Shown here piece after piece: positions 3,199 through 64,000 of a stretch of 64,000 nucleotides of DNA. The position numbers and the translations under genes are program-made. This DNA comes from Chloranthus sessilifolius. Lineage: Eukaryota; Streptophyta; Magnoliopsida; Chloranthales; Chloranthaceae. The notes under the pieces were generated by a model. It ran no database searches. It was given only the letters and a program-made list of their open reading frames with translations, and had not been told where the DNA came from. How positions within the stretch are numbered: position 1 is the first letter of the stretch; each line of letters begins with the position of its first letter. The stretch is from positions 37,213,810-37,277,809 of the forward strand of contig CM037593.1 of assembly GCA_021018995.1 (NCBI GenBank), written 5' to 3'.

Positions 3199-3561
3199 AT
3201 GCCACTGGCACTTTGAAAAAAGCTAGACTTCGATTTGCTCTTCCTTGATGGATCTGGTGAGCTCTCTGTCTAGGAAATTCAATTGTGTGGTCTGTATTCA
3301 TACTATAGGTGTCTAATTGTCTGAGTATCTTAAAAATTAGACCCTGTTTATCTGATTGGTGTATTTTTTTCATCTACTTCAGAATTCAAGCAAATACAAG
3401 CCTAGCAACCCTTGCAATTACCTCCAAAGCCTTCTCGGGAAAGAAATTGGAAGGGTAGCATAGTAGCACCATTTGCTGGGAACAACATGCTGGTTTTGTA
3501 TAAGTGTTCTAATCCTGATTCTAAAAGCATCCTATCATCAGAAGCTAACAAAAGCAAGTAT
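3199..3561 (+). other. Possible host exons interrupted by Copia-A
   Basis: A short segment at 3199-3256 sits between an acceptor-like TTCTAG and a donor-like GTGAG and could read ATGTLKKARLRFAL. A second segment, 3380-3561, continues across the Copia-A insertion to a donor-like GTGAG near 13226. Both contain stops in most frames. If real they are remnants of one host gene. I cannot name it. Confidence 0.2.
3557..3561. repeat. Copia-A target-site duplication (left)
   Basis: AGTAT directly precedes the left LTR and is repeated at 13179-13183 directly after the right LTR, as expected for a 5-bp LTR-retrotransposon target duplication. Confidence 0.9.
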
Positions 3562-4033
3562 TGATGGAATCTAAATGGATCTGACGATCCGACCATCCAA
3601 AATTAAGCCTAAAGATCTAGGCGCACGATCAATCAAAAACAATAAATTTATAACCTATAAATATGCGCACCTTGAGCGTTAGCCATCGATGGTTGGTTGC
3701 CGATCTTCAACGATGTTCTCGCGTTCAATGTCTCCTAGCACAATGGAGATGCTGTCGCCAATAGGGAGGATTGAATTCTGTCGAGCAATCGTTGGGACCA
3801 GGCACCCCTTATATTTATAGCTAAAGAGTCCTATCCCATTAAGGACTGAAATTACTAATTATAGTGTGATTAGAAATCACAATCATACCTTAACTGAAAG
3901 ACTCAACAATCAGTTGCCTATTCTCTTCAAACTCACCAGAATAGCAATTGTACATCTCAAGGTTGATCTTATACCATTCACTGGTCAACGGGTTTGACCA
4001 TAGTGATGGCCACCAAAATAGGAACTTCTAACA
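3562..4033 (-). repeat. Copia-A 3' LTR
   Basis: 472 bp, nearly identical to 12707-13178. In element orientation it starts TGTTAGAAGTTCC and ends TTCCATCA. A TATA-like CTATAAATATAAG lies at about 3808-3820 in minus orientation. Confidence 0.95.
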
Positions 4034-7291: not shown

Positions 7292-9782
7292 TGTAATAGC
7301 CCGAAAAATCACACAAAACTATGACCTCGGGATCCATGCCCGATCGGTCATAGGTTTGACCAATTAGGAGATCAACAGTCAGTATAAGGTGTGATGAACG
7401 GATGGGATGTAATAGACTGAGCGCCTATGAGGCGTATGATGGATGTGTGAAGTCACGTACACCTAGTGGGGTGCATGTACTCAACACATGAGCTAGAAGA
7501 GGAATAAATGGGTTTTAATGAACCCTAAAATCAATGCCTTGAGTTGTTGAAAGAGGAAAGAAGAGAGAGAGGAGTGAGAAAGGGAGGATTTAAGAGGAGT
7601 TATGGCAAGTGATTGGAAGAGAAGATTTGAGCATTCAACGCCGGATTCGACGGCGTGAATCCGCTAAATGAGGAGCTGGAAACCCTAGCTTTCCAACCAC
7701 TAGATCTAATCAAATAGAGATTTGATTGAGGTAAATTTCTTGTGAATTAAATGCATGAGTTATGGGTGAATTATTGTAGTTAGGAATAGTTAAAATTATA
7801 GATAAAAGGTTTAGAAAATAGAGGAAAAGAGATGGGAAAAAGATTGGGAAGAATAAAATGAATTTGACGTAATTTCGATTAATCGAAATCGAGATTCGAT
7901 TAATCAAATTCGCCAGAAGTTGAAAAGTCAAGGAACACGATTTCGATTAATTGAAATAAAGTTCGATTAATCGATTTTGGATTTCGATTAATCGATTTGG
8001 GAATCGATTAATCGATTTGGGTACTTCGATGGACCCGGAGAGGGGCTGGAGGATGAAAAGGGGGAAATCGACTAATCGAAATGGGGATTTCGATTAATCG
8101 ATTTTAGATTTCGATTAATCGATTTGGGATCGATTAATCGATTTGAGAACTCGATTACTCGATTTGAGAATCGACTTGCCAGTAAATTGATTAATCGAAA
8201 TGGGATTCGATTAATCGAATGGGAATCTCGATTAATCGATTTAGAATTGATTAATCGATATTGGATTTCGATTAATCGATTTTGGAAATCGATTAATCGA
8301 ATGAGATTCGATTAATCGAAATTGGAGTTCGATTAATCGACTGGGATACTTTTTGTAAGCTTTTGACTTGGACTTTAAGACTCTTGGGGGGTCTTGGAAC
8401 TATTCTTTTACATCCTTAGTGATGTGTTTCACATGTTATATGGTACCATAGGTGGTACGTGAGAACGAGTGCACAAGGAGCCACGTGGGACCTTGATGCA
8501 TTGATCAGCTAAAGACTTGAGGTAGGGAACACCCTGAACATGTACTTTATTTTACAAGAGCATGTATGTAGTGATATCAATTCAATTCAAATGTTTTACT
8601 ACTCAATGATTATGAAAAGTGTGTGTGTGTGACATTCATAAGAGAACTTAAATGAACCATCCCCAGGGGATGATGAAGTGAAGAAGTAAAGGCATCAGGT
8701 GTGATGCAAGTGAATGGATACATCCCAGGGATGTATCCATGATTGAATCATGCTTGATGAGGCCTAACTGATATAAGATAGCACAATTACACGGTGAATA
8801 ACTATATGTAAGGCACCGATATTTTTGTTATTTGAGGTTTGATAGGGTACCCCACCGACGTGGCGGGATAACCACGACTGACGCGGCAGGATATCCGTGA
8901 CCGATACGGCGGCTAATCCGTAGGCCAGTACGGAGGCTTATCCGTACAGAGTAAGCACACCCCAGGGGTGTTGATGAGATGTGAAACCACCCAATCCCGT
9001 GGGAAAGGGCTTGGGTACTATTAGTATTCAGGGAATACATTTAAAAGCCTATATAGATGACGATGAAGGGTATCTCGTCGGGGCTCGATGCTATATTGCT
9101 CGGGATTATTTAAGTTGAAGTTTAAGTTTTGCTTTAGGCCTTCTCGATCATTCATGATTAACTAAAAGACATGAGTAATCTACCAAGAATTGAAGTATTT
9201 TTAATCGCTTTTCATCAATAAATGCATAGACACATCATGCATGCATATCATAGAATACATGTGAGTTATATTTTATATGTTCAATTGTGTTCTTGCTCCT
9301 ATTGAGCTAGGATGTAGCTCACCCTATAGACTATACGTCAGGGTCCACTACTAGCACGAGGCTTGAGGAGGCCGACCCGTGAGTTGGACCTTGCGCGGCG
9401 AGGAGTTAGAGCCACCTCGAGGACTTCTTCTAGAGGACTCTGGATGCGACTTTGAGGAGTTTTAGTTGGAGATTGTACGGCTTGGTATGTCAAGCCTGGT
9501 TTTTGATTAAACCTTGTGTATATGGATATCAGAGTATTCTTTTGGGCGAACCATCCATGATGATGGTTATCATCGATGGTTCGGATCGGTTCTCCCTTCA
9601 TGCAGAGGCATGAGGGTAGAACTGTCTTTTGAGAAGTATTTCTATGTAGATTTAAATTCCGCAAGTTGTTCTTATTTATTTTATGCTTGATATACCAGTG
9701 TTCCGTGCATAGTTGAGGGGCACGGTCAAGATGATCGTGCTGATGGCACGGGTTTCGGGGTGCCGAAATCCGGGCTGTCACA
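7292..9782 (+). mobile_element. Gypsy-type solo LTR inside Copia-A
   Basis: A 2491-bp unit begins TGTAATAGCCCGAAAAA, ends GAAATCCGGGCTGTCACA and is flanked by TAAGA. Its ends match those of the 2.8-kb LTRs at 15129 and 21531, and it shares internal motifs with them, such as the GCTCACCC...TATACGTCA block near 9316. There is no internal region, PBS or second LTR here, so it is best read as a solo LTR left by LTR-LTR recombination. Confidence 0.92.
7866..8345. repeat. Palindromic TTAATCGATT array in solo LTR
   Basis: More than twenty close copies of TCGATTAATCGA occur with a 20-22-bp spacing, interrupted once near 8020-8060 by a non-repeat segment. Each unit is a self-complementary core with a variable GATTTTGGATT-like spacer. 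Open frames across it, such as 8124-8315, are repeat artefacts. Confidence 0.93.
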
Positions 9783-12704: not shown

Positions 12705-12706
12705 AT

Positions 12707-13178
12707 TGATGGAATCTAAATGGATCTGACGATCCGACCATCCAAAATTAAGCCTAAAGATCTAGGCGCACGATCAATCAAAAATAATAAATTTATAACC
12801 TATAAATATGCGCACCTTGAGCGTTAGCCATCGATGGTTGGTTGCCGATCTTCAACGATGTTCTCGCGTTCAATGTCTCCTAGCACAATGGAGATACTAT
12901 CGCCAATAGGGAGGATTGAATTTTGTCGAGCAATCGTTGGGACCAGGCACCCCTTATATTTATAGTCAAAGAGTCCTATCCCATTAAGGACTAAAATTAC
13001 TAATTATAGTGTGATTAGAAATCACAATCATACCTTAACTGAAAGACTCAACAATCAGTTGCCTATTCTCTTCAAACTCACCAGAATAGCAATTGTACAT
13101 CTCAAGGTTGATCTTATACCATTCACTGGTCAACGGGTTTGACCATAGTGATGACCACCAAAATAGAAACTTTTAAGA
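12707..13178 (-). repeat. Copia-A 5' LTR
   Basis: 472 bp, matching 3562-4033. Its outer end reads TTAAGA on the plus strand where the other LTR has TAACA, a decayed terminal dinucleotide. Confidence 0.95.
12957..12965 (-). promoter_or_regulatory. TATA-like box of Copia-A 5' LTR
   Basis: The minus strand reads CTATAAATA in the middle of the 5' LTR, the expected position of the retrotransposon promoter. No transcript evidence is available. Confidence 0.55.
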
Positions 13179-15128: not shown

Positions 15129-15867
15129 TGTAACATCCCAAAAATTTAAACTTTGAATAGTGTGCCTCGAGATATGTGCCCGTCAGGTCACTAATTTTGA
15201 GCAGGTGAAAGTTAACTTGATGACTTAGATTGGATTAATTTTGGTGTGAAAAGTGCACACCTGTATAGTGTTAGATCATTTTATAGGATCTTATACACCT
15301 ATTGTGGCGTGTATGCGTTTTACACGTGAACCAGACTTTTAAGTATAAGAGAGGGAGGGGCTTCTTTTAGAAGCCATTTAGTTGAAAGGTTGAGGCTTTT
15401 GGTTTCTAGAGATAGAGAGGGAGAGGAGAGAAGAGAAAGAGCAAGAGGAAGAGATGGGCTTGGATGCATTATGTGCGAAGGATTAAAGAAGGTGTTCTAA
15501 TCCGTGTGAAATCCGAAACTCCAAGCTAAGAAGATCTAGCTTGTTGTGTGAAAGCTCGGATCGAAGAATCGATGAATATAGGAGGTTTGTACGAAGTGTG
15601 TGTGGATGATCACCTAACGATCGTGTCGAAATTGTGAAAATCGTGGGGCTTGGAAAGATCAAAAGGGGTTTGGAAACCCATTTGCTTGCTAGGAAGAGGA
15701 CGATTCGATCGGGGAGAAAATCGTTGGATTAAAGGTAAAATTTTTGATTTAAATTGTGATTTGTATGTAGATTAATCCTTAGTTAGATTATGAGTGAGAG
15801 ATTTGAAGAAAATGGGTTAAGATTTAAAGAAAAGTGAGTTAGAGATGCTTGACCCCGATTTAGGGTG

Positions 15868-16118
15868 AAATCTGATGAAACCGTTCGATCGAAATTAAAA
15901 ATCGATCGAACGATTTCGTCAAGAGTGAAATCTGAAGGTTTCTGGTCGGTTTGGAAACCGTTCGATCGGTTTTGAAAACCATTCGAACGAAATTAGAAAT
16001 CGTTCAATCTATTTTTAAAATCGTTTGAACCAAATTAGAAACCGTTCAATCGATTTTCAAAATCATTCAAACGAAATTAGAAACCGCTCGATCGATTTTA
16101 AATCGTTCGAACGATTTT
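15868..16118. repeat. TTCGATCGA/TTCGAACGA repeat in 5' LTR
   Basis: About four to five imperfect units of roughly 40 bp alternate ACCGTTCGATCGATTTT with a CGTTCGAACGAAATTAGAAA-like half. The corresponding block in the other LTR is at 22266-22506. Confidence 0.85.
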
Positions 16119-16876
16119 GACTAGGCTCGCTGATACTGCTTCCATATTTTGATCGTAACTTTTTATTTCGAACTCCGATTGATACAATTCTTATGGCGTT
16201 GGAAAGAGGATGACAAGATCTATAATTTTTGTATTTTGACAAACTCATAAATCTAAAGTTTTAAAGGTCAAAATTTAGGAGGAATGTTGCATCAAATTCT
16301 ATATTAGCATGAATTTGCCCGTTTCAACCTTGGTTTTGAGAAAATACTTAAATGTATATAAGTTATTAGTGAGTAGAGTTGATCTTTGATGCATCATTGT
16401 GTGCTTGTGATATAGATTGAGGCGGAAGGCCATTGAAAGGACCTTGCTTGGCTTCGCGCAACCTCAAGATTAAGGTAGGGGAAACTCGACCTAAATTTAT
16501 ATATTTGACTTGATTCATAGTATTAGATGTGTTTGCATGAATATGATGAGTTGATCAAAGTTGGATATATTAGAATTGGAGTCTTATGATTTAGAATATG
16601 AACTCGTGAAATCGTGATTATGCATGTGATAATGTTCGATTCTAGATAACCTTTGATATTGTTGAGCTTGACTCGTATTTTAAAAGTAAGATTTTGAGAT
16701 CGCTGGTGACACTTGTGAATCATTTTGATACCCTTGGAACAATGATTTACTCAACGACGCTTGAACTTTTGACATTTGCATTATGAATCCTTTGGATTCT
16801 TTGACTGCATCCCTTAGGTCGGTACGGCGGCCTATCCGTACACGCATTCATACATACGCTGCATATGCATCCCTTG

Positions 16877-17130
16877 GAACATCATTGCATCCCTTGGACA
16901 CTTTGAAATCATTGGACACTTTTGGACATCATTACATCCTTCGACACTTTGGAAACATTGAACACACTTTGGAAACATTGAACACCTTTGGACACCCTTG
17001 GACATCATTGCATCCCTTGGACACGTTGGAATCATTAGACACCTTTGGATACCATTGGACATCGTTGCATCCCTTGGACACTTTGGAAACATTGAACACC
17101 TTTGGAAACATTGAACACCCTTGGACACCC
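16877..17130. repeat. TTGGACAC minisatellite in 5' LTR
   Basis: Units of about 18-20 bp such as CTTTGGAATCATTGGACAC and ATCATTGCATCCCTTGGAC repeat for about 250 bp. The copy in the 3' LTR (23255-23545) differs in unit number, so the array has changed since insertion. Confidence 0.9.
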
Positions 17131-17825
17131 TTGTGTTGTTTGAGTTTGTGTTTGCAAATTCGACGTTATTTGGAATGTGTGTAAAATCTCGGATATTTTT
17201 GGATAAGTCTAATTATTTTAAGATTCTTTTCGATATGTGTACTTTTGGATGGAATATCATAGTAAAGTTAACTGTTTAAGGTTGAGTTTTGAAATAGAAG
17301 AAATTGATGAATGCTTTGAAAATTGTGTTTGACAAAAAAAAGGGAAATGATTAAGTTTTGGAAGCATAAATTAAATGATGGTTTTGACTCTTGATTCAAG
17401 CTATGTTTTCGAATGTTAAATGTGAATTTATGTTGTTTATCCTCTACTGAGCTTAGTTGTTAGCTCACCCCGATTATACGTCACAGGTGTAGGTTTGGGA
17501 GGACCCAGATTACATACTAAAAGAAGGGAGCTTCCACACAAGGATTTGTACTCTGTTCAGGGATCGTAGAATTGTGCTTTGTAGATTTGGTGAATTAAGT
17601 TTTGGTACATTCGTACTAGTGTACACCATTGTTAGGTGATGGTTGGTCATCACTGGTGTTTATTTAGTTTTTTTCTTAATGGATTTTAAATCTTGAGGTT
17701 TTAATTATGCCATATGTAATAATTGCTTTGATTTCCGTATATTTATGGATGCACCAAGTATTCTGTATCAGATTGTGGTCTACGATCTGGCAGTCCAGGT
17801 TTTCCAATTGGGTTTAAGATGAAAA

Positions 17826-17866
<41 letters not shown>

Positions 17867-17902
17867 AAAATTTTAGGTTGGGAAAATCTGGGCTGTTACA
17901 GT

Positions 17903-21530: not shown

Positions 21531-24228
21531 TGTAACATCCCAAAAATTTAAGCTTTGAATAGTGTGCCCGTCAGGTCACTAATTTTGAGCAAGTGAAAGT
21601 CAACTTGATGACTTAGATTGGATTAATTTTGGTGTGAAAAGTGCACACCTGTATAGTGTTAGATCATTTTATAGGGTCTTATACACCTATTGTGGCGTGT
21701 ATGCGTTTTACACGTGAACCGGGCTTTTAAGTATAAGAGAGGGAGGGGCTTCTTTTAAAAGCCATTTGGTTGAAAGGTTGAGGCTTTAGGTTCCTAGAGA
21801 TAGAGAGGGAGAGGAGAGAAGAGAAAGAGCAAGAGGAAGAGGTGGGCTTGGATACATTGTGTGCGAAGGATTAAAGAAGGTATTCTAATCTGTGTGAAAT
21901 TCGGAACTCCAAGCTAAGAAGATCTAGCTTGTTGTGTGAAAGCTCGGATCGAAGAATCGATGGATATAGGAGGTTTGTACGAAGCGTGTGTGGATGATCA
22001 CCTAACGATCGTGTCAAAATTGTGAAAATCGTGGGGCTTGGAAAGATCAAAAGGGGTTTGGAAACCCATTTGCTTGCTAGGAAGAAGACGATCCGATCGG
22101 GGAGAAAATCGTTGGATTAAAGGTAAATTTTTTTATTTAAATTGTGATTTGTATGTAGATTAATCCTTAGTTAAATTATGAGTGAGAGATTTGAAGAAAA
22201 TGGGTTAAGATTTAAAGAAAAATGAGTTAGAGATGCTTGAACCCGATTTAGGATGAAATCTGATGAAACCGTTCGATCGAAATTAAAAATTGATCGAACG
22301 ATTTCGTCAAGAGTGAAATCTGAAGGTTTCTGGTCGGTTTGGAAACAGTTCGATCGGTTTTGAAAACCGTTCAAACAAAATTAGAAATCATTCAATCGAT
22401 TTTGAAAATTGTTCAAACGAAATTAGAAACCGTTCGATTGATTTTGAAAATCGTTCAAACGAAATTAGAAACCGTTCGATCGATTTTAAATCGTTCGAAC
22501 GATTTTGACTGGGCTCGCCGATACTGCTTCAGTATTTTGGCCGTAACCTTTTATCTCGAACTCCGATTGGCACGATTCTTGTGGCGTTGGAAAGAGGATG
22601 ACGAGCTCTACAACTTTTGTGTTTTAACAAACTCATGAATCTAAAGTTTTAAAGGTCAAAATTTAGGAAGAATGTTGCGTCAAATTCTATGTTAGCATGA
22701 ATTTGCCCGTTTCAACCTTGGTTTTGAGAAAATACTTAAATGTATATAAGTTATTAGTAAGTAAAGTTGATCTTTGATGCATCATTGTGTGCTTGTGATA
22801 TAGATTGAGGCGAAAGGCCATTGAAAGGACTTTGCTTGGCTTCGCGCAACCTCAAGATTAAGATAGGGGAAACTCGACCTAAATTTATATATTTGACTTG
22901 ATTCATAGTATTAGATGTGTTTGCATGAATATGATGAGTTGATCAAAGTTGGATATGTTAGAATTGGAGTCTTATGATTTGAAATATGAACTCGTGAAAT
23001 CGTGATTATGCATGTGATAATGTTCGATTCTAGATAACCTTTGATATTGTTGAGCTTGACTCGTGTCTTAAAAGTAAGATTTTAAGATCGCTGGTGACAC
23101 TCGTGAATCATTTTGATACCCTTGGAACGGTGATTTACTCAACGACGCTTGGACTTTTGACATTTGCATTATGAATCCTTTGGATTCTTTGACTGCATCC
23201 CTTAGGCCGGTACGGCGGCCTATCCGTACACGCATTCATACATACGCTGCATATGCATCCCTCGGAACATCATTACATCCCTTGGACATCATTGCATCCC
23301 TTGGACACTTTGGAATCATTGGACACCTTTGGACATCATTGGATCCTTGGACACTTTGGAAACATTGAACACACTTTAGAAACATTGAACACCCTTGCTG
23401 GAATCATTGAACACCTTTGGACACCCTTGGACATCATTGCATCCCTTGGACACTTTGGAATCATTGGACACCTTTGGATACCATTGGACATCGTTGCATC
23501 CCTTGGATACTTTGGAAACATTGAACACCCTTGGACACCCTTGTGTTGTTTGAGTTTGTGTTTGCAAATTCGACGTTATTTGGAATGTGTGTGAAATCTC
23601 GGATATTTTTGGATAAGTCTAATTGTTTTAAGATTCTTTTCGATGTGTACTTTTGGATGGAATATCATGGTAAAGTTAACTGTTTAAGGTTGAGTTTTGA
23701 AATAGAAGAAATTGATGAATGCTTTGAAAAATGTGTTTGAAATAAAAAAGAGGAATGATTAAGTTTTGGAAGCATAAATTAAATGATGGTTTTGACTCTT
23801 GATTCAAGCTATGTTTTCGAATGTTAAATGTGAATTTATGTTGTTTATCCTCCACTGAGCTTAGTTGTTAGCTCACCCTGACTATACGTCACATGTGTAG
23901 GTTTGTGAGGGCCCAGATTACATACGAAAAGAAGGGAGCTTCCGCACAAGGATTTGTACTCTGTTCAGGGATCTTAGAATTGTGCTTTGTAAATTTGGTG
24001 AGTTAAGTTTTGGTACATTCGTACTAGTGTACACCATTGTTAGGTGATGGTTGGTCATTACTGGTGTTTATTTTGTTTTGTTCTTAATGGATTTTAAATC
24101 TTGAGGTTTTAATTATGCAATATGTAATAATTACTTTGATTTCCGTATATTTATGGATGTGCCAAGTATTCTGTATCAGATTGTGGTCTACGATCTAACG
24201 GTCCGGGTTTTCCAATTGGGTTTAAGAT

Positions 24229-24280
<52 letters not shown>

Positions 24281-24314
24281 AAAATTTTAGGTTGGGAAAA
24301 TCCGGGCTGTCACA
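21531..24314 (+). repeat. Gypsy element 3' LTR (2784 bp)
   Basis: Starts TGTAACATCCCAAAAATTTA and ends AATCCGGGCTGTCACA. Compared with the 5' LTR it lacks the CTCGAGATATG piece near its start and differs in minisatellite unit number and in the AT run at about 24248-24278. Confidence 0.96.
23255..23545. repeat. TTGGACAC minisatellite in 3' LTR
   Basis: Counterpart of 16877-17130 with a different arrangement of the 18-20-bp units. Open frames across it on both strands are artefacts. Confidence 0.9.
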
Positions 24315-29287: not shown

Positions 29288-29441
29288 TGTTAGTGTATTG
29301 CACAAAGATTGACAGAAAATAGACCGGAAAATTGCTTCAAGGCGCGATTAGATCGCTGTCTTTAAGACAATATTTGCCCCCTATATGCAACGGGATATCG
29401 GCAAATTCGCCTCCAGGATACAATGAAGCCTCGGTGAAGAA
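29288..29441 (-). repeat. Inverted LTR-end copy at Copia-B 5' terminus
   Basis: The reverse complement of 44059-44212, with only two mismatches noticed over 154 bp. At its inner edge GTGAAGAAT, a 7-bp loop and ATTCTTCAC form a perfect small hairpin (29434-29458). The second arm is the same LTR sequence in forward orientation, breaking off just before the gag start. Confidence 0.92.
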
Positions 29442-43236: not shown

Positions 43237-44212
43237 TGTTAGATATTTACCAAATAAATATTTATTACTTTAATAATATTTATCTATTATTAATTTAATA
43301 ATATTTATTTATTTTTAAATGGTTCTTTAAAGTGATTGATTCCATATTAAAAGGATGCTTTTAACCTTCAAGTCAAAATTACTTAAATTTTGAATTAATA
43401 TTGGAGGGAAATTTTTCCCACCATAAGTTTAAAAGTGTTGTAAATGTTTTGTCCCACCTCACTATTTTACAAGAAAATTCATGGCTTATATATGGAAACT
43501 CACCTTCCATATTGTTTGGCTTAATAAGAAGAACACAGCTCATAGCGGTGGTTCGCCGCCGCGCACGCGCGCGCGTGTGCGATGTGCGAATGGCGCAATT
43601 GGCGCTTTTAAGGCGCACTTCGCACGACCGCATCGTCGCGAGGAGCGACCGGGCACGGATTGACTTCGCACGTGTGCACCACATGTGTGCATTAGGCAGT
43701 TTCCGACCGTTCAAGGAAACGGTCGGATTTCGGATTCGAACAAACAGTTACGATTTCGAATTCAGACAAATCAGTTGACCAAAAGATGTAACTGTTCGGA
43801 TGTGAACCGTTGGATCCTTGCAACCGTTGATCGGATCGATCAGGGCCCTCGATTGCAAGCAACCGACAGACACAACCGCCCCTGAAAAGGTGCTCCGAAA
43901 GTTATAAATAGAGGCCAGAGGAGGGATTCTAAACACTTGCAATTTTCGAATCTTACATCTGAGCCCTCAGAATTCGTGTGCAAACCAGAGCATTCTGCGT
44001 CTTCGTTTCGTTGGGTCGCACACTACAGTGCAACGTAGCGTAGTGTGTGACAGATCAGTTCTTCACCGAGGCTTCATTGTATCCTGGAGGCGAATTTGCC
44101 GATATCCCGTTGCATATAGGGGGGAAATATTGTCTTAAAGACAGCGATCTAATCGCGCCTTGAAGCAATTTTCCGGTCTATTTTTTGTCAATCTTTGTGC
44201 AATACACTAACA
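43237..44212 (+). repeat. Copia-B 3' LTR (976 bp)
   Basis: Starts TGTTAGATATTTACC and ends GTGCAATACACTAACA. TATAAATA at 43903-43910 is a good TATA box. GC-rich DNA with an alternating CG/TG stretch (43561-43581) lies about 330 bp upstream of it. Frames on both strands in this GC-rich part are not recognised and mirror one another. Confidence 0.9.
43903..43910 (+). promoter_or_regulatory. TATA box in Copia-B LTR
   Basis: TATAAATA followed about 30 bp later by CTAAACACTTGC, a plausible transcription start region. Inference from sequence only. Confidence 0.6.
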
Positions 44213-53868: not shown

Positions 53869-54204
53869 AACTATGTCATACGCAACCTATATATCTCTTG
53901 AAGTAAGGTAAACTTGGTGCCATGAAGATGTCGACTTTAAAGAATGGATCACACCGTTTGTATCAAGAATTTGAGGATTAAATATTTGGAGCTAATCCTA
54001 ATTACTATTAGCCTAACATCAGTTCACTCTCCAGAAGGTTCATCAGTTATGCGACGTCAACTTCATTTGCAACAAATGACTCCACGTCAGCTTTAGTTGT
54101 AACAACAAATAGATTCCCTTTCTTGAAGCCTCTATCACTGCAATATATATACAGATAATTCTTGTACTGAAATTTAAGAAAAGAGAGAGAAATAGAAAGA
54201 GAAA

Positions 54205-54330
54205 TTTACAGAATCGACCTTGTCAGATACACTTTTTTTGTCAAAGACCCTATATTTTCACCTTTATCCAAACCGACTAGCTTTTAGCTAAGCCACTTCC
54301 AGCTAATACAAAAAGTCTCAAATACCCCTT
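54205..54330. repeat. Diverged copy of the MULE left-end sequence
   Basis: Related in direct orientation to 54648-54780: both contain AAATTTAC, TCGACC, TGTCAGATACAC and TTTCACCTTTATCCAAACC in the same order. Confidence 0.75.
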
Positions 54331-55103
54331 ACAATTTTTATCGTTTTACATAGTTTAAAATTTGAAAATTTTGCATTTTTTTATATTTATGCGATATAAA
54401 GCTACATCTATGTCATCTAATTTGAAGGTTATAATATAAATATCGATGGTGCCAGTCGATATGACTCATTAAACGGTCAACATCGACTGATTAATGAGTC
54501 GATGCTGACTATAGAGATAAAAAATAGCAAATGAAAAGTAAAGAAAATAGTGACATTGCTAGTGAATTAAATGCCTTTGGCTTTATGTGGACGAAGACGT
54601 GCCATCATTGGTGTTATGGGTTTATTTGATGGGACGCTTCTTTTTTGGGAAATTTACCTGATCGACCCTGTCAGATACACCTTTTACGTCAGAAGCCCTA
54701 TAGTTTCACCTTTATCCAAACCAACCAGCTCCAAGCCTAGCCGACCCTAAGGAGAGTAAAAGGTCCAAATTACCCCCTTCTATGACTTCCTTTAACCAAC
54801 AAAGCATCCTCTTCTTTATTTTATCCTGCAAAAAAGTTAGAGGTGCAAAACCTTAGACGACGTCTCCTTCCTTAGTCTGATCTGCTCCGATCTGCTACTT
54901 CGAAGAAGAAAACAGAGGCTTGGGAGAAGAAGCCCCTGCATTTATCCATTGTGGCAAGAAGACCCTGCAGTTTGTCCTTGTGGCGCGAGGTATCCTACTT
55001 AAACCCCATTTTCAGTTTATTAGTGCCTCTTAATGATGCAGTATCTCCTATTCGTACAGTATAAGAAAGTCTGTATATCCTTGGATCGTTTTTTTTTTAA
55101 AAT

Positions 55104-55388
55104 ATAAATCGATTGCAAATACAATCGTCATCGACTCCATATAGAGTGATATCGACTTCATATAGATTCGATATCGATTGTATATAGAGTCGATAACGAT
55201 TATATATACAATCGATATCAATTGTATATATAATCGATATCAATTATATATATAATCATTATCGACTCTATATACAATCGATATCGACTCTATATATAGT
55301 CGTTATCGACTCTATATACAGTCGATATCGACTGTATATGTAGTCGTTATCGACTATATATACAATCGACGAAGATTTATAGTCGTCT
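55104..55388. repeat. 22-bp palindromic array 1 (upstream of mudrA)
   Basis: Units built on TCGATATCGA or TCGTTATCGA alternating with (C/G)TATATA(C/G) at a 22-bp period, ending 57 bp before the mudrA ATG. Confidence 0.95.
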
Positions 55389-55444
55389 TTTCTCTTTTGT
55401 TTCATCAGTCTTATGACCCCTTCCTTCTCATTCTTAAATAGACG

Positions 55445-58206
55445 ATGACGGACGTGAGGATTCCTCTTCTTTGTCACTATGATGGTCTTCTTGTAAATGA
55501 TGATGGCTTGTATGAAGGTGGCTGGCGGAGGCTTATTAACATTTCAACTGATATTTCTTATGAACAATTCATAAGGCTAATGTCTGCTGTCAGTTTTGCG
55601 AAGGTGGATGAAACAGTTTCCACAAAGTTTCATATGAAGATAGTGAATACACCTGTGGTTGCCGACATTTTGGACTCTGATGATTTGACCACGTTATTTA
55701 CGTTTTATAAATCTGCACCTTATTTACGTTTTATAAATCTGCGGTGGACGTTATAAAAGTATTGAACTGTCATCCTTCCCAGTCGAAGCTGAACAAGTAG
55801 ATATCGGCGAGACTGATTTTGTGACTCATTCATTTCAGCCATGTAAGTTTGAGGATGAAACTGTATACGATACCGTCCCGTTAGGCGATGAAGGTTATAT
55901 TGCAGCGAACGATGGCAAAGGGAAAGCAACTTTTGATTTAAACGATGCTCCGATTGAATCGTATGATGACCCAGTAAAATACATGCATGGGTCACAACAA
56001 TGTAGTCAATGGTTAGACTACACTTCAGAAAGGGTGGTGGATACCGACGATTTCAGTCATATCTTCTCCGGTGGATGGATAACTTGGTTTACTTAAGAAT
56101 TATGTTCTACCATACCATCGATGGGAATTACCAGAGAAACTCAACCCCATGTCCATACACATGAGCACCCCTTCGGTGAAGGGCCTAGCCAACCACGCCA
56201 TTATCCATTCGGTGAAGGATTCGGTCAATCACATCAGAACCCCTTTGGTGAAGGATCTAGTCAACCACCCGAGAACACCGCTAGTGAATGGCGTAGTCAT
56301 CCTCAAGCCACTAATGAAGATACCTTAGAAGAAGAATATGAAAGCGAACCGGATGGGTTTATCAAAGAGGATCCGAAAATTTTTGTGTGAGACATTGACA
56401 ATCCCCTAGTAGACGGAGATTACGAAATGTCAGAGACATCGGGAGACTCCTCGGATGAAGAGGTGGAAACTGAATATCGGAATTGGACGTTTAAAATTGG
56501 AGAGATCTTTCGAGACAAACAAACATTTCAAAGAGCATTGAAAGAGCACGCGGTAGAGAAAAACTTTCAAATTCGGCCTTTGAGGACCGCTAGTTATCGA
56601 GTGACAGTCGGATGCTACGAACCCGATTGTTCGTGGTGAATTTTTGCACCTAAATTGATGGGCTCGATTCTTTCCAAATCAAGACATTCAATAGTACTCA
56701 CACATGCAGAGCCGCTAAGATCGGACCGCACGATCACCGTAATGCAGCAATCTCCTTCGTAGCGAACTATATACAGGATAAACTTATGGAAGGATTTGAC
56801 TATACACCGGCGTCGATAATATTTGATATTGTAAAAGCTTATAATGTGCAAACCTCATATGCAAAGGCTTAGAGGGGAAAAGAACTTGCCCTTAATGATA
56901 TTAGAGGCAGTTGGGAAGGATAATTTATTGATCTACCGGCCTACGTGAAGGAGATAGAGAAGGTAGATCCTAATATACAAACATCCTTTCAACTTACGCT
57001 TGACGGTAAGTTTCAAAGATTTTTTTGGAGTTTTGACCCATGCATCGGAAGCTACCGCAATACACTTCGTCGCATATTACTTGTAGACGACACACACCTA
57101 CGAGGATGTTTCGAAAGGATCCTACTTATCGCCTTTACGCAAGACGATAATGGTCATATATTACCGTTAGCATTTGCCATGGTCGAGTTAGAAGAAGAGG
57201 ATACGTGGATGTGGTTTCTTGAACGGGTAGGTGCGTTCGTGATCGGTGGGTTTAACAAAGATTTCGTATTTATCACGGACAGGTCGAAGGGTTTAATAAA
57301 TGCGGTGAAACGTATCTTCCTTAACGCATATCACAACTACTGCATGCGGCATATGACACAAAATTTACAGCACAAGTATCTCAGGAACAATGTGAAGGGT
57401 CTATGGTGGTGCGCCACGCGTGCATATTCAAAAGAGAAATTTTATTATTTTATTAATGAAATGAAGAAAGATCCTACTGATCCTCGAACCGTAGAATATA
57501 TTTTAAAAATAGATCCGAAGCATTGGGCACGCGCACATATGGAAGGAAGGCAGTACGATTCCCTAACTACGAATATTGCCGAAAGCTTAAACAGCGTACT
57601 AAAGATAGCTCGAGAGAGACCAATTATCGACTTAATCAGAATTACTAGAGAGAAAGTCGCCGATCATTTTCAAAAACGCAGAGAAATATCTGAGAAATGG
57701 ACCACCCTCCTCTGCCCGAAAGCAGACGCGCACATGAAGAAGGTGTTGCAATGGGCCGATAGAAAGAGAGCTCAACCATACGGGCGCGATCAATTCCAAG
57801 TCAATTCTGAAAATTTCATTCATCACGTCGACTTGGAACACAAGACCTGCAGTTGCCATCGTTGGCACATTCATAGCTTGCCTTGCTCCCATGCCGTGGC
57901 GGCCATCAATCGAAGAAGTTACGACTATCATAACTTTTGTGAGAAATAGTTTTTCACCGCTTGCTTTAGACAAATATATGACGAGCAATAGGTTCCCACC
58001 CTAGATAAAAGTCAATGGGAGTTCCAAGCAGAGCAACTCCCTAAAATATGAAAGTGAGACCACCCTATTATTGCCGAAAGCAAGCTGGTAGTCCGAGGAA
58101 GAGAAGGATAAGGTCTAAGGGTGAGGTTAGGGCACTACAGTGTAGCAGGTGCAGTGAATATGGTCATAATCGCAGGAGCTGCACGGCAGTGGGACCGATG
58201 GATTGA
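55445..58206 (+). pseudogene. mudrA: mudrA-type MULE transposase
   Basis: Starts MTDVRIPLLCHYDG. After an acidic linker with three HPFGEG-like repeats (about 56160-56250) comes the MuDR N-terminal domain (FKIGEIFRDKQTFQRALKEH). The MULE DDE core follows with RILLVDDTHLRGCFER, FVFITDRSKGLINAV and TTNIAESLNSVLK. The SWIM finger is CSCHRWHIHSLPCSHAVAAI (about 57850-57910) and a CCHC knuckle CSRCSEYGHNRRSC lies at 58141-58182. Defects: a 26-bp tandem duplication near 55693-55742, frameshifts near 55757 and 56660, and stops at 56094, 56388, 56637 and 57947, several of CGA-to-TGA type. The 56945-57949 block is the longest intact piece. Confidence 0.93.
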
Positions 58207-58285
58207 CAGTGTATATTTTTAATAATAATAGATTGAATGTAAATGAGAAATTCAGAATCCATATTTTTTTACTGTAATATAGTCT

Positions 58286-58655
58286 TTACCGATTAATCAT
58301 AGAGTCATCATCGACTGTATACATAATCAATATCGACTCTATACAGAGTCGCCATCGACTATTTATAAAGTCGATATCGATTCATTTAAGAATCAGTATC
58401 AATCACTTATGTAGTCGATGACGACTCTATATAAAGTCGATAACGACTCTATATAGAGTCGTTATCGATTATGTATATAGTCGATGACGACTCTATATAT
58501 AGTCGATAGCGACTTAGCGACTCTATATAGAGTCATTATCGATTATGTATATAGTCGATGATGACTCTATATATATTCGATAGCGACTTCATACAGAGTC
58601 GTTACCGATTATTTATATAGTTGATGACGACTCTACATATAGTCGATAATGACTG
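58286..58655. repeat. 22-bp palindromic array 2 (between mudrA and Ulp1)
   Basis: Same family, about 17 units, with CGACTCTATATATAGTCGA-type units most regular between 58420 and 58600. It separates the two convergent 3' ends. Confidence 0.95.
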
Positions 58656-58768
58656 CGATTTCTACTTTTTAATCACAACTACATAAAAATGGTGCAATTA
58701 TATTCAAAAAAATAAATTAACAAAAAATATTTCATTTATATTTACAAAAATATTAAAATACAACCACA

Positions 58769-59291
58769 CTACTGTTGCGCCCCCTCCTTTTTGTCGTCCT
58801 TCACTAGTACTCCTCCGCCATCGCCTGTGTATGTAGCCAGTATATGGCCAATTTCTGTCATGATCCTATCTATATCTGATTGCGCAAAGTCAAATTTTTT
58901 CCCGATCATGAAGTACTCGACATACTTCACGACAAACACTCTATAATCACACGAGTTGGTCTGTCGGGGGAGGGCTTTGATCCGACAGTCACTAAATGAC
59001 CAAGGATAGTTCTTTGCGATCGGTGCAGTGGAGTCACCGTACGAATATAAAATCACGGGAAGGTATTGGGTCTATTTCAAAATAATAGAGAGGAGTGTTA
59101 GATATGCTAAGCTAACAATGATAAAATATATGCTAAGCAAAATATCTTACCAGTGCCTGCAATTGGGAGACATATCTTTCCTTGGAGGGCCTATTACATA
59201 TAGGATCGACGATCCGTATCGATCGTTCGACTACCTTCAAGATTGCAAGTGCTCAGTGTAGTAGTTGTTCTGAATGTATTGGCATAAATAT
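58769..59291 (-). pseudogene. Ulp1 protease exon (exon 6)
   Basis: Contains the C48 peptidase core: FMPIHSEQLLH, a stop, ALAILKVVERSIRIVDPI, RYVSQLQALVRYFA, then after a degenerate stretch NYPWSFSDCRIKALPRQ and VFVVKYVEYFMIGKKFDF. The catalytic Cys/Gly codons TGT GGA appear as TAT AGA at about 58946-58951, two G-to-A changes. Confidence 0.85.
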
Positions 59292-59699
59292 CTACAAAAA
59301 AGTAATATAATCTCAAAGGGTATGATAGAAAAATTATAAAGAATAATTATAAAGAGGATAAAAGCATACTACGCTGCATTCGTGAGCCCACAGATTCTGA
59401 AACTCATTGAAGAAGAAAGTTTTCGTCAGCTTCTTCCCTTCGGTCTGTTCTTGTCTATAGGCAGCCCACCGTTGAACTTGAACCTCGAACGATTGTTCGT
59501 ATAATTTTTCAGCAAGCAGGAACTTGTTGAAATCTCTCAGTTCATATCCCATGAACGTCAGCGCGGTAGGGTCCATAAGGAAGTTTTTGAGCTTTTTATC
59601 AGGATGAATTTTATCATCAATTACTTTCAAATGTCTCAGGTAGGCGCCCATAACCTGAAACCAATGCAGTTAGATTAAAATATGCAGTTAGAATTAAAT

Positions 59700-59935
59700 A
59701 CATAATCGTTATCGACTCTATAAGTCATCGATGTCGATGACTTAAGTCATCATTATCGACTCTCCAATGAATCGATATCGATGAGTTACAGAGTCGATAA
59801 CGATTACATAAGCCATCGTTATCGACTCTAAAAGCCGTCGATATTGATTAATTTGAGAGTCAATAATGATTATTTAAGTCATCGTCATCGACTCTATAAT
59901 GAATCGATATCGATTCTATTTCGAGTCGTCGACAG
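59700..59935. repeat. 22-bp palindromic array 3 (Ulp1 intron 4)
   Basis: Same TCGATATCGA/TCGTTATCGA family but with TAAGTCATCG and ACTCTATAATGAATCGA spacers, so this subfamily differs from arrays 1 and 2. It lies between acceptor (59655) and donor (60145). Confidence 0.92.
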
Positions 59936-60661
59936 TTTTAACTATTCTTGTTTTTGCCTACAGTATGTTAAACTTATAAAGTTATCTAGGTACTGCGTGG
60001 CCGCCAGACATCTAAAAGATTGCACCACCAGCTTATCCTTACCGACAGTGCTTACATAGTCGCTGCATAAATAATAGCCAACGTAACTAATCTTCACGAT
60101 AAATATATAATAATAAAGTTAAGGAATCAGGAAAGAATAACTTACTCGTCCTCCTTCAGAGGCTTGTTCCATATGTCTAGCATATATTTTTGCTCCGCTG
60201 TCAGCTTAGGTGGAAGCTCAGCAGGAGCATCTTCAGTCATAGACCCAGGACCAGCGGTAATGAGTGCCACTGGTCCAGGCTTAGCAGTTGTTCCTTCACT
60301 GGCCTTCTTGGTAGGCTTCTTTACAGCAGCTACCCTTAGTTGTGCCTTAGGTCCGACGGTAGTTACTTTGCTGAGTTTACCTTGCCTAGGTCTTAAGCGA
60401 GGCTCAGCTTGTTGGTGAGGCAATTGGGAAAAGGTTTCCTCTTCACCAGCAGGACCCTTATCAGTTTGAGTCTCAGGCTGCTCGTTAGCAACTGCCGTCA
60501 TCATCAATGGGAGGAGGGGGAACCTGATGCACAGGAGCTGATGGTTCCTTATCGACGACTGTGTCGCACACCTTCGATATCAGCTCCTCAATAGCCACAT
60601 CCTGTACATCGAAATAATGGTGCAAAATAAGAATTAATTTTTGGTCCCCATTTTTAAAAGT

Positions 60662-60925
60662 CCAAATCGATTTTAAATATAATCGTTATCGACTGCATAT
60701 ATAGTCGATATCGATTTTATATATGATCGTTATCGACTCTATTAACAATCGTTATTGATTGTATATAGAGTCGATATCGATTGTAAATATAATCGATATT
60801 GACTCTATATATAATCGATAACGATTGTATATATTATCGGTATCGACTCTATATACAGTCAATAACGATTGTGTATATAGTCGTTATCGTCTCTATATAC
60901 AATCAATATCGATTTATATTAACAA
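60662..60925. repeat. 22-bp palindromic array 4 (Ulp1 intron 3)
   Basis: About 11 units with ATATAATCGTTATCGACT and TATATAGTCGATATCGATT forms. It lies between donor GTATGT (60950) and acceptor (60602) and nearly fills the intron. Confidence 0.95.
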
Positions 60926-61573
60926 AACTGAACATGATTTTAATACATACCTTAGGTTTCGCCTCTAATAAAATTTCAAGGAGTTCTTTTATATTCGACT
61001 GGCCCTTTCTGACCAAAGAGTTGTAGTGATTTAACTTCTGCAACTCCGCATCCCTTGAATTCAGCCGCTCTTTGAAGGAGTTGCATAGTTTCTCTATAGA
61101 AGCACAACGTTTAGCCAGGGCCTTATTCTCTCCCTCCAAATCTCTCACTCTTTGGGTGAGCTCCATGTTCTCCAGTGTCAAATGGTTGACCCTCCTCAAC
61201 AAAGAATCATTGGAGGTGGACGGTTCAACTGGGTTATCTTTCGCTGCTAGGCTCTCCTTGGTGGCCCCCCTAGTTCTTGGCCGACCCTCTCCCACATGGA
61301 CAGGGCCCTTTTTCGAGGGGGGTTCTTCTTCTGATGTCGATGCGTCATCCCATTCTTCCTCTTCAATATTCTAGACCGGAATGTAATTTATTTTCTTCTT
61401 CGGCCGCATCTCTTCCACTGCTTTCTTGACCGGTTCTTTCCTCTTCCCCCCAACCTCCTTTTGAACCCGTAGATATTCTCTTAACACGGGTATCTCTAAT
61501 TCAAAGCCCTGAAGCACGAGGGGAGCGCAAACCTTTTGAAAGAAAAGAAAACATGGTAAATAACAGAATAAAA

Positions 61574-61842
61574 TGATCGTATATATAATAAATCATTCTC
61601 GATTATGTAAATAATCAGTACCGACTATTTAATAAATCATTATCGATTCGGTACTGAATGGCTATCGATTATTTAATGAATCGTTATCGACTACTTAGTA
61701 AGTCGTTATCGATTTCGAAATGAATCGCTATCGACTTACTAAGAAGTCGATACCGATTCTATACTTAGTCGCTATCGACTTCTTAAAAAGTCATTATCGA
61801 TTCTGTAATGAATAGTTATCGATTCTAGAATGAATCGGTAAG
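61574..61842. repeat. 22-bp palindromic array 5 (Ulp1 intron 2)
   Basis: Units read TCGTTATCGACTACTTAGTAAG, that is, the TATATA spacer is replaced by TACTTAGTA or TTAATGAA. It nearly fills the intron between 61873 and 61533. Confidence 0.9.
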
Positions 61843-62757
61843 TTGCTTTTTGAATTGGCAATAGACTTCATACCTTGCTGTCTAACATCTGTCCGTGAGT
61901 GTAACCTTTGATCCTTGACTGCGCCCTGTCCGACCATTTCAGCAGTTGTGGGAAAGGGTCCTCGAGGCCTAGCTGGGATGGCGATATATCGGGCAGGATC
62001 TCATAAGCCCACCATTGAAGTACACATATGCATCCATATGTGTTGTACGTCTTCAGGGCTTTATCCATCTCGACAGTCTTTCTATTCGTCGTTCCCTTCA
62101 TTATATACTCAATCAAGTCTTTGTAGACGTGCAGACCCCACAGAGTTCGGTTAAAGTTCTCCACATCATCAATGAGGTCGATGTGGTCTTCCGAAAGCTA
62201 ATGGTGGGACCCGAGGAAGAGAAATATGCACAGCACAAATACAAGGGACAACTTTACGAAGTCCTCATCACTTTTCGCTCTCCAAATTGCAGCATCTATA
62301 TGAGACCGGAGAATTTTTCCAGGAGGCGTTCCATGAAAGTATTTGTATCGAATGGTTTATTTTTTCGATGGTTTAACGGATGGGATATACTTTTCTGGGC
62401 CAATTACGGCAAGGCCCAGTATCAATGCAATGTCTATCTTCAGAATATAGACATCAGTCTTCCCAATTCGAAAGTGGTTTTTTTCAACCCAAAATGTCAA
62501 CATCGCATCCACCACATCGGAAAGAAATCACACACCCTTAGGCATTTGAAATATTCCACCAAAAATTGAATCTCTCAGCAACTTCTTCCGAGCTGGGGTA
62601 GCATTTTCGTAGAGATTCGAAATGGCATTGGGCGAACACTTGGCAACAGCTCGGTGTACAACCATCTTGACAGCCTTTTGAAATGAACTGTAATAAAAAA
62701 GAAATGACTGAGCCCCATACTAACAAGGATAGTTTAAATGTTGAATGAAATGTAATA

Positions 62758-63010
62758 TATAAAACCGATATCGATTACATATAGAGTCGATATCGATTAC
62801 ATATGTAATCGATATCGACCCTATCTGTAATCGATATCGACTCTAGATGTAATCGATATCGAGTCTATATATAATCAATATCGACTCTAGATGTAATCGA
62901 TATCGAGTCTAGATGTAATCGATATCGACTCCATAGTCGTCATCGATTACATATGAAATCGCCATCAACTATTTATACAGTCGGTATCGACTCAATATAA
63001 AGTCGCCATG
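62758..63010. repeat. 22-bp palindromic array 6 (Ulp1 intron 1)
   Basis: Highly regular units TCGATATCGATTACATATGT and TCGATATCGACTCTAGATGT. It begins about 70 bp upstream (minus orientation) of the exon 2 acceptor. Confidence 0.95.
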
Positions 63011-63289
63011 ATCCCAAAATATTTATTTACATTGAAAATATTTAATTTACTAACTCAAAAGATTTCATGAACTCGCCATTGAATCAAAATGTTTCATTTA
63101 CTTTCAAAAATTTTCAATTACATTCATAATATTTCATTTACAATTAAAAATAAAAATAAAATCTTGCAACAACGTCCTAAGAAAGATTCTTCGATAAAAG
63201 CGGTCCTCCGCTTCTAACCAAAATTTAGGAAGATGGATGAAGAACAGGTGGTGGATGGGGTAGAGAGGCAGGTGGTTTCGTCTTAAGTT

Positions 63290-63483
63290 TCTTTTTTTTC
63301 TTTTATTCTTTTCTTTTCTTCCTTCTTCTTTTTCTTTTCTTCCTTCGCCAAAATTTTTATTACTTCATCGTACTCGTCCCACAGGAACTACAGAGGATCT
63401 GGTTCTGATGGTGGTTGTGGGTCCCCCCATACAGGCTCGAACTTGATTGGGTTATAGTAGGTTTTTTCTTCGTCGTCTGACAT
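63290..63483 (-). pseudogene. Ulp1-like gene exon 1
   Basis: ATG at 63483; encodes MSDDEEKTYYNPIKFEPVWG, then an in-frame stop (CAG-to-TAG type) after PPSEPDPL, then a Lys/Glu-rich tail. An acidic MSDDEE start suits this family, but the donor site is not clear. Confidence 0.5.
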
Positions 63484-63761
63484 TGGAAAAAATATGGGCT
63501 GGTAGGGATGATAGGTTTGCTAAGGACGAACTAAACCTGTATTTAAAGCTCCTAGATGGTGGAATACGAATCGTTGTATTAAATTTTCTCATTCTTCCAA
63601 GCTTACTTGCCATAATGGTTTTACAAAAGGGTAGTTGGCAATAAATTGAACGTCGGCTGAGATAAATATAAAATCTCGTATGATTTATTATGGGTTATGG
63701 CATCGGGGGTAATAATTATAGGAAAATTAATTCATATGATGGGTATGAATTATATTCATAG

Positions 63762-63942
63762 AGAGTCGATATCGATTTTTTATAGAGTCGTCATCGACTA
63801 TTTAAATAGTCGATTACGACTATATATGTAATCGTTATCGACTCTACATGTAATCGATAGCGACTCAATATATAATCGGTAACAATTACATATAAGATCG
63901 ATATCGATTACATATAAGATCGATATCGATTACATATGGGAA
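63762..63942. repeat. 22-bp palindromic array 7 (upstream of Ulp1)
   Basis: Same family, on the upstream side of exon 1 and about 280 bp from its ATG. It mirrors array 1 upstream of mudrA. Confidence 0.93.
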
Positions 63943-64000
63943 AACCTTAAAAAATTATGTCAAAATGTGCACCAAAGAGAGGAGAAAAAAAAAATCTAAA

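Follow-up and report, generated by a model that had tools for sequence, protein, structure and literature searches.

A decayed Mutator-like element with two convergent genes

The last 9 kb of a 64,000-nt stretch of Chloranthus sessilifolius DNA (GCA_021018995.1, contig CM037593.1, positions 37,213,810 to 37,277,809; hereafter the window, whose own numbering is used throughout) hold a Mutator-like element (MULE) that adjoins retrotransposon-like sequence, recognised from open reading frames (ORFs) judged by eye and from direct repeats resembling pairs of long terminal repeats (LTRs). The element carries a mudrA-type transposase gene on the + strand and, antisense to it, a second, PMD-like/Ulp1-like gene, their 3′ ends convergent; seven arrays of one palindromic 22-bp motif lie outside the exons. 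Judged by domains and layout, the element is a decayed KI-MULE copy in which mudrA is accompanied by an antisense Ulp1-fused gene. KI-MULEs are described with an Ulp1-domain gene antisense to mudrA (PMC2528002), and the orientation found here agrees with the KI-MULE identity proposed in the initial annotation, which was silent on the breakage of both genes in this copy. KI-MULEs are also non-TIR elements, devoid of terminal inverted repeats. The right end of this copy lies beyond the window; comparison of the putative left end with positions 63001-64000 gave a best inverted match of 9 bp.

The mudrA-like gene (55445-58206, + strand) is broken into open pieces in three frames. Separate pieces match the Pfam families DBD_Tnp_Mut (5.8e-8), MULE (5.5e-18) and SWIM (9.8e-9), as befits a transposase of the Mutator superfamily, and a CCHC-like knuckle was spotted by eye. 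A protein search with a transposase piece returned one distant MULE protein (P0002, Sesamum), and NCBIfam gave an IS256 match under its cut-off. The gene carries a 26-bp tandem duplication at 55690-55742, where the open frame switches, and a stretch of 36-bp period at 56158-56268, in which a peptide around FGEG-SQP recurs.

The antisense gene (58769-62665, − strand) was modelled in seven exons from splice signals and open frames, the donor of intron 4 being uncertain. Its exons lie at 62665-61874, 61532-60951, 60601-60146, 60062-59981, 59654-59373, 59291-59151 and 59071-58769. The Ulp1-like character given to it by the initial annotation is borne out by a minus-strand C48 match (E 3.7e-10; query exons 4-7, matching part exons 6-7); against PDB, the Ulp1 part gave weak SENP/Ulp1 matches by sequence (best E 0.01). 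Exon 1 matches PMD with E 3e-7, under Pfam's cut-off, and returned nothing from NCBIfam and no PDB sequence match at E 10; its predicted structure (mean predicted local distance difference test score, pLDDT, 37) was left unused. Exon 2 has coiled-coil and bZIP-like matches only, weak and below cut-offs. Residues 40-300 of the protein found no protein-database homologue at E 10. The reading frame is interrupted by stops in exons 1 (three), 2 and 6 (one each), and it changes within exon 3. Upstream, a small minus-strand ORF (63283-63483) with an acidic start, a lysine-rich end and one internal stop has no Pfam match; it could represent a further gene of the element, the third, or else the exon 1 of the initial annotation.

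Placement and structure of the 22-bp arrays

A path-finding script called 81 motif units in seven arrays, to none of which a strand is assigned. Array A1 (12 units, 55119-55375) lies upstream of mudrA and A2 (16 units, 58299-58656) in the gap towards which both genes run with their 3′ ends. Within the Ulp1-like gene, A3 (10 units, 59700-59919) occupies intron 4, A4 (12 units, 60655-60918) intron 2 and A5 (12 units, 61587-61850) intron 1. A6 (11 units, 62759-62996) precedes exon 1 of the model on its 5′ side, and A7 (8 units, 63760-63935) is further upstream, near the window end. Tandem Repeats Finder, the check proposed at the outset, recovered all seven as 22-bp arrays at about 55119-55369, 58299-58654, 59705-59914 (mainly as 44/66), 60666-60919, 61586-61837, 62757-62935 and 63762-63937, some of them also as 44- or 66-bp units.

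Although 61% of the span is exonic (mudrA taken as one block), none of the 81 units falls in an exon, and random placement left all seven arrays clear of exons in 0 of 20000 trials (arrays placed independently, 10 bp of overlap allowed). The initial annotation's picture of a single palindromic motif kept outside the exons, upstream of mudrA (A1) and in the intergenic gap (A2), therefore stands. Its account of the introns holds in part: it had placed arrays in introns 1-4 and left one intron free, a 78-bp intron 5. In the seven-exon model introns 1, 2 and 4 carry arrays and intron 3 does not, so that three introns (3, 5 and 6, of 83, 81 and 79 bp) are array-free. Introns 1, 2 and 4 measure 341, 349 and 326 bp and are mostly array; minus the array they shrink to 77, 85 and 106 bp and come close in length to the introns that have none. 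At the splice sites a margin free of array is kept, 23-61 bp on the donor side and 45-54 bp on the acceptor side. A6 belongs either to the 5′ region or to a further 5′ intron, depending on the small ORF at 63.28-63.48 kb, which has no family match. A coding function of the arrays was considered and dropped, since no listed frame of at least 50 codons spans a whole array.

The register is strict: 70 of 74 unit spacings are exactly 22 bp (the other four are 18, 21, 26 and 26), in line with the period first reported. The unit consensus is centred on TCGATATCGA, and its matrix correlates at 0.98 with its own reverse complement; as the unit caller seeks a palindromic core, the procedure itself accounts for the conservation of the core and for some of this symmetry, though not for that of the 12 flanking positions. 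The two halves of the unit are close to identical in profile (about ATANARTCGWT), which makes the array an 11-bp half-site in alternating orientation. The string TCGWTATCGA occurs at 31 places, which make 48 matches since a palindrome scores on both strands; shuffles counted in the same way lead one to expect 0.27. All of the matches fall within 55168-63929. Matrix peaks of at least 12 bits fall inside the arrays in 76 of 78 cases, the other two being at 54477 and 54499; at 8 bits or more, 5 of 83 lie outside the arrays and none in exons. The 64-kb window holds no further array of the motif, its 12-bit matches being confined to the element and one related fragment. Neither a two-core motif pattern nor the transposase piece was found in viral contigs, nor a three-core pattern in bacterial and archaeal genomes, and Rfam gave no match at gathering threshold anywhere in the window.

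The intact motif brings two CpGs, most of which persist: over 55119-63935 the observed/expected CpG ratio is 3.0 in the arrays and 0.86 in exons of the same decayed element. Changes at the CpG positions of the core are transitions in 28 of 36 cases, which fits decay of methylated CpG and also functional variants; we do not use it as evidence.

Two units differ on average at 6.1 positions when they come from the same array and at 7.1 when they come from different ones, a contrast that no label shuffle out of 2000 matched. For 39.9 of the 81 units (ties shared), the most similar unit belongs to the same array, where 11.15 would be expected. The higher-order periods of 44 and 66 bp are a sign of tandem duplication on the spot and, with the within-array likeness, bear out the local amplification advanced in the initial annotation. 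Its companion claim, a spacer subtype proper to each array, survives as that general likeness but not array by array: A1 and A4 differ from each other no more than units do within either of them, and little separates A6 from A7.

A putative left terminal region (54649-54730, no strand) has a copy at 54201-54282. That copy opens a neighbouring fragment (54201-54514, no strand) with 82 bp of the putative left end at 84% identity, and about 200 bp past it come two copies of the motif, at 54477 and 54499, spaced by exactly 22 bp. No pair of 12-bit matches at this distance arose when the first 55 kb were shuffled 1000 times. A single match as strong as the one at 54 kb is not rare (10 of 60 shuffles), and for this reason the argument is limited to the spaced pair. 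Left-end repeat and pair together suggest that the motif belongs to a family, beyond this copy alone; the fragment would be a decayed relative that has the motif too, or else a product of duplication of the element's own left end.

Arrays as candidate targets of an anti-silencing protein

A precedent for such a layout exists in Arabidopsis. The protein VANC21 binds a 9-bp motif, YAGTATTAY, which is tandemly repeated in the introns of the VANDAL21 transposon, between its genes and in its terminal non-coding parts (Hosaka et al. 2017, PMC5735166). This runs counter to the initial annotation, which knew of no satellite with such a preference for the introns of a gene carried by a transposon. Binding was demonstrated by chromatin immunoprecipitation sequencing (ChIP-seq) and electrophoretic mobility shift assay (EMSA), and VANC21 expression removes DNA methylation from VANDAL21; for VANC6 both the motif, likewise arrayed, and the set of targets are different (PMC5735166). 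According to a 2026 review (PMC13317346, citing Sasaki et al. 2022, EMBO J 41:e110070), Ulp1-bearing VANC genes are termed KIU and behave in the same manner, KIU-bearing elements too recognising non-coding motifs.

Against this background, the arrays are probably the target sites of an anti-silencing system of VANC/KIU type with a dyad-symmetric, CpG-containing motif. In favour of this reading are the anatomy in common with VANDAL21, the PMD-like and C48 matches of the antisense gene beside a mudrA with MULE and SWIM domains, the lack of units in exons, the near-uniform length of the introns once arrays are subtracted, the free margins at splice sites, the separate conservation of the dyad halves and the CpG excess of the arrays. 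From the layout we infer docking sites for a protein supplied by intact copies of the family, most likely the product of the VANC/KIU-type antisense gene. Bound in many adjacent copies to the 5′ regions, the gap and the long introns, this protein would strip DNA methylation and silencing marks there and so keep the genes of the element open to expression; the motif would confine the effect to members of the family. The arrays would have grown by tandem duplication, in steps of 22, 44 and 66 bp, wherever coding and splice signals were spared. A dyad form would suit a putative dimer, the coiled-coil matches of exon 2 being weak; binding by a dimeric protein, one of the options listed in the initial annotation, is kept as an option. 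The proposal is that the system would work like a VANC system; we do not claim proven membership, because DUF1985, which with DUF287 is named as a VANC domain (PMC5735166), went undetected.

Several observations weigh against this proposal. Neither DUF1985 nor DUF287 was found in the antisense gene by Pfam search with E up to 10, in a decayed sequence of which HMMER's filters may lose weak matches. The joined model had no protein-database homologue at E 0.001 among the best 7992 candidates by common words, and it is consequently by its domains and orientation that the gene is related to KIU. In this copy the gene is broken, and a tyrosine occupies the position aligned to the cysteine of the SENP5 D-C-G, which we take to be the catalytic residue; this copy could thus respond in trans only. 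Finally, the motif is of another kind: VANC21 reads YAGTATTAY in one orientation, non-palindromic and with no internal CpG, whereas here a CpG-containing dyad places half-sites every 11 bp in alternation, and a search for six VANC21/VANC6 motif spellings found a single 8-mer, once.

We also offer, tentatively and as a rather doubtful extension, a CpG-bearing dyad code: with alternating 11-bp half-sites about one helical turn apart, a dimeric PMD/Ulp1 protein might form a polymer on one side of the double helix, detect whether its own sites are methylated and spread over introns, 5′ regions and gap. If true, this would be a mode of recognition unlike the one-way motifs of Arabidopsis VANC21.

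Another function for the palindromes would be as a hairpin or small-RNA source. In this scenario, repeats in introns and untranslated regions fold as RNA, are diced and feed RNA-directed DNA methylation (RdDM), serving silencing and not escape. As RNA the two arrays that were folded, A4 and A5, reach -107.9 kcal/mol (z -12.7) and -77.8 kcal/mol (z -6.4), far beyond shuffles, and in Arabidopsis RdDM hits the same regions as VANC with opposite effect, their targets overlapping (PMC10398659). Any palindromic DNA site, however, would form such stems as RNA, and the test lies in whether changes preserve pairing. Across the spacer, the facing halves of neighbouring units are complementary 540 times against 517 (standard deviation, sd, 8) in all-array shuffles, of which 13 of 5000 reach 540; within arrays the excess is gone (537, sd 9; 1979 of 5000 reach 540), so that it is accounted for by array-wide subtypes. 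The dyad arms do not covary either: 564 complementary pairs were counted against 572 (sd 9) when arms were re-dealt among units (80 of 81 units). Re-dealing within arrays raised the expectation to 591 (sd 10), with 18 of 5000 shuffles as low as observed, an effect of the frequency of asymmetric centres like TCGT/TCGA; the common centres TCGTTATCGA and TCGATAACGA break the dyad symmetry. The pair-preserving stem changes expected of a source of small interfering RNA were thus not found within the unit. On balance, this lack of arm covariation, seen at one locus and better tested on copies from others, favours two independent half-sites over a selected RNA stem, and we regard a small-RNA role as unlikely.

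About as improbable is that the arrays are transposase-binding sites of subterminal type, which would help MURA find and pair the ends of the element. A1 and perhaps A7 are situated towards the element ends, dyad sites suit a dimer, and MURA and Spm TnpA are listed among transposon proteins with demethylating activity (PMC10706983), but at least four of the seven arrays (A2-A5) are deep inside the element, in introns and the intergenic gap, where sites for end recognition are not expected.

An equally small chance is given to passive minisatellite growth, in which slippage or unequal exchange expanded a short, functionless palindrome wherever coding and splice constraint was absent. The 44/66-bp higher-order units and the array-specific subtypes suit this account, and purifying selection alone would also yield exon exclusion. 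What it does not explain is one motif at seven separate places, as slippage alone does not seed three introns, a gap and three 5′ positions; moreover, other tandem repeats in the non-coding parts of the element are few and short. The core is also better conserved than the spacer, a weak point given that units were called via the core. The selfish intron satellite entertained in the initial annotation is weakened by the presence of arrays in the 5′ regions and the intergenic gap.

Elsewhere in the window, a second palindromic array, with 13 exact copies of TCGATTAATCGA at about 20-bp spacing (7875-8340), sits between Copia-retrotransposon-like ORFs flanked by 472-bp direct repeats (3560-4031 and 12705-13176, 97.9% identical). 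A 2.76-kb direct repeat (15172-17900 and 21559-24314, 93% identical) resembles an LTR pair, with several internal tandem arrays per copy, and a 154-bp inverted repeat (29288-29441 and 44059-44212, 98.7% identity) has its copies about 14.6 kb apart.

Comparison with known transposon systems

In the literature on VANC, Ulp1-MULEs, KI-MULEs, PMD and MULE-intron arrays, as far as represented by the text of those sources, we found no palindromic 22-bp KI-MULE motif; we do not claim that it is unpublished, Sasaki et al. 2022 being outside this coverage.

Transposons that carry a de-silencing protein together with its own address label in their introns offer a clear example of escape from genome defence in which the host is spared general harm. 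Strictly spaced, dyad, CpG-containing sites would give a handle on protein-DNA recognition and on the control of binding by methylation, and a single motif common to a MULE's gaps and its long introns may serve as a sequence signature for finding further systems.

Three groups of elements invite comparison. PMD-bearing MULEs have a PMD-like domain antisense to a SWIM transposase (PMC6446971, table), the arrangement also seen here, and for PMD captured by MULEs an anti-silencing role has been speculated upon (PMC5418596); they differ in that the available text on them makes no mention of motif arrays and in that PMD-like and Ulp1 parts are joined in one gene model in the C. sessilifolius element. 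KI-MULEs and Kaonashi (KIU) elements share with it mudrA and an antisense Ulp1-domain gene (PMC2528002, PMC13317346), the difference being that the gene is broken here. With VANDAL21 (Hiun) and VANDAL6 the likeness extends to the non-coding parts: a short tandem motif in introns, intergenic and upstream regions, mainly non-exonic, local amplification and divergence of the repeats, and an extra protein encoded besides the transposase, although here DUF1985 is undetected and an Ulp1 domain is present. Taken together, the element looks like a further case of the known VANC-like layout, with a motif of its own.

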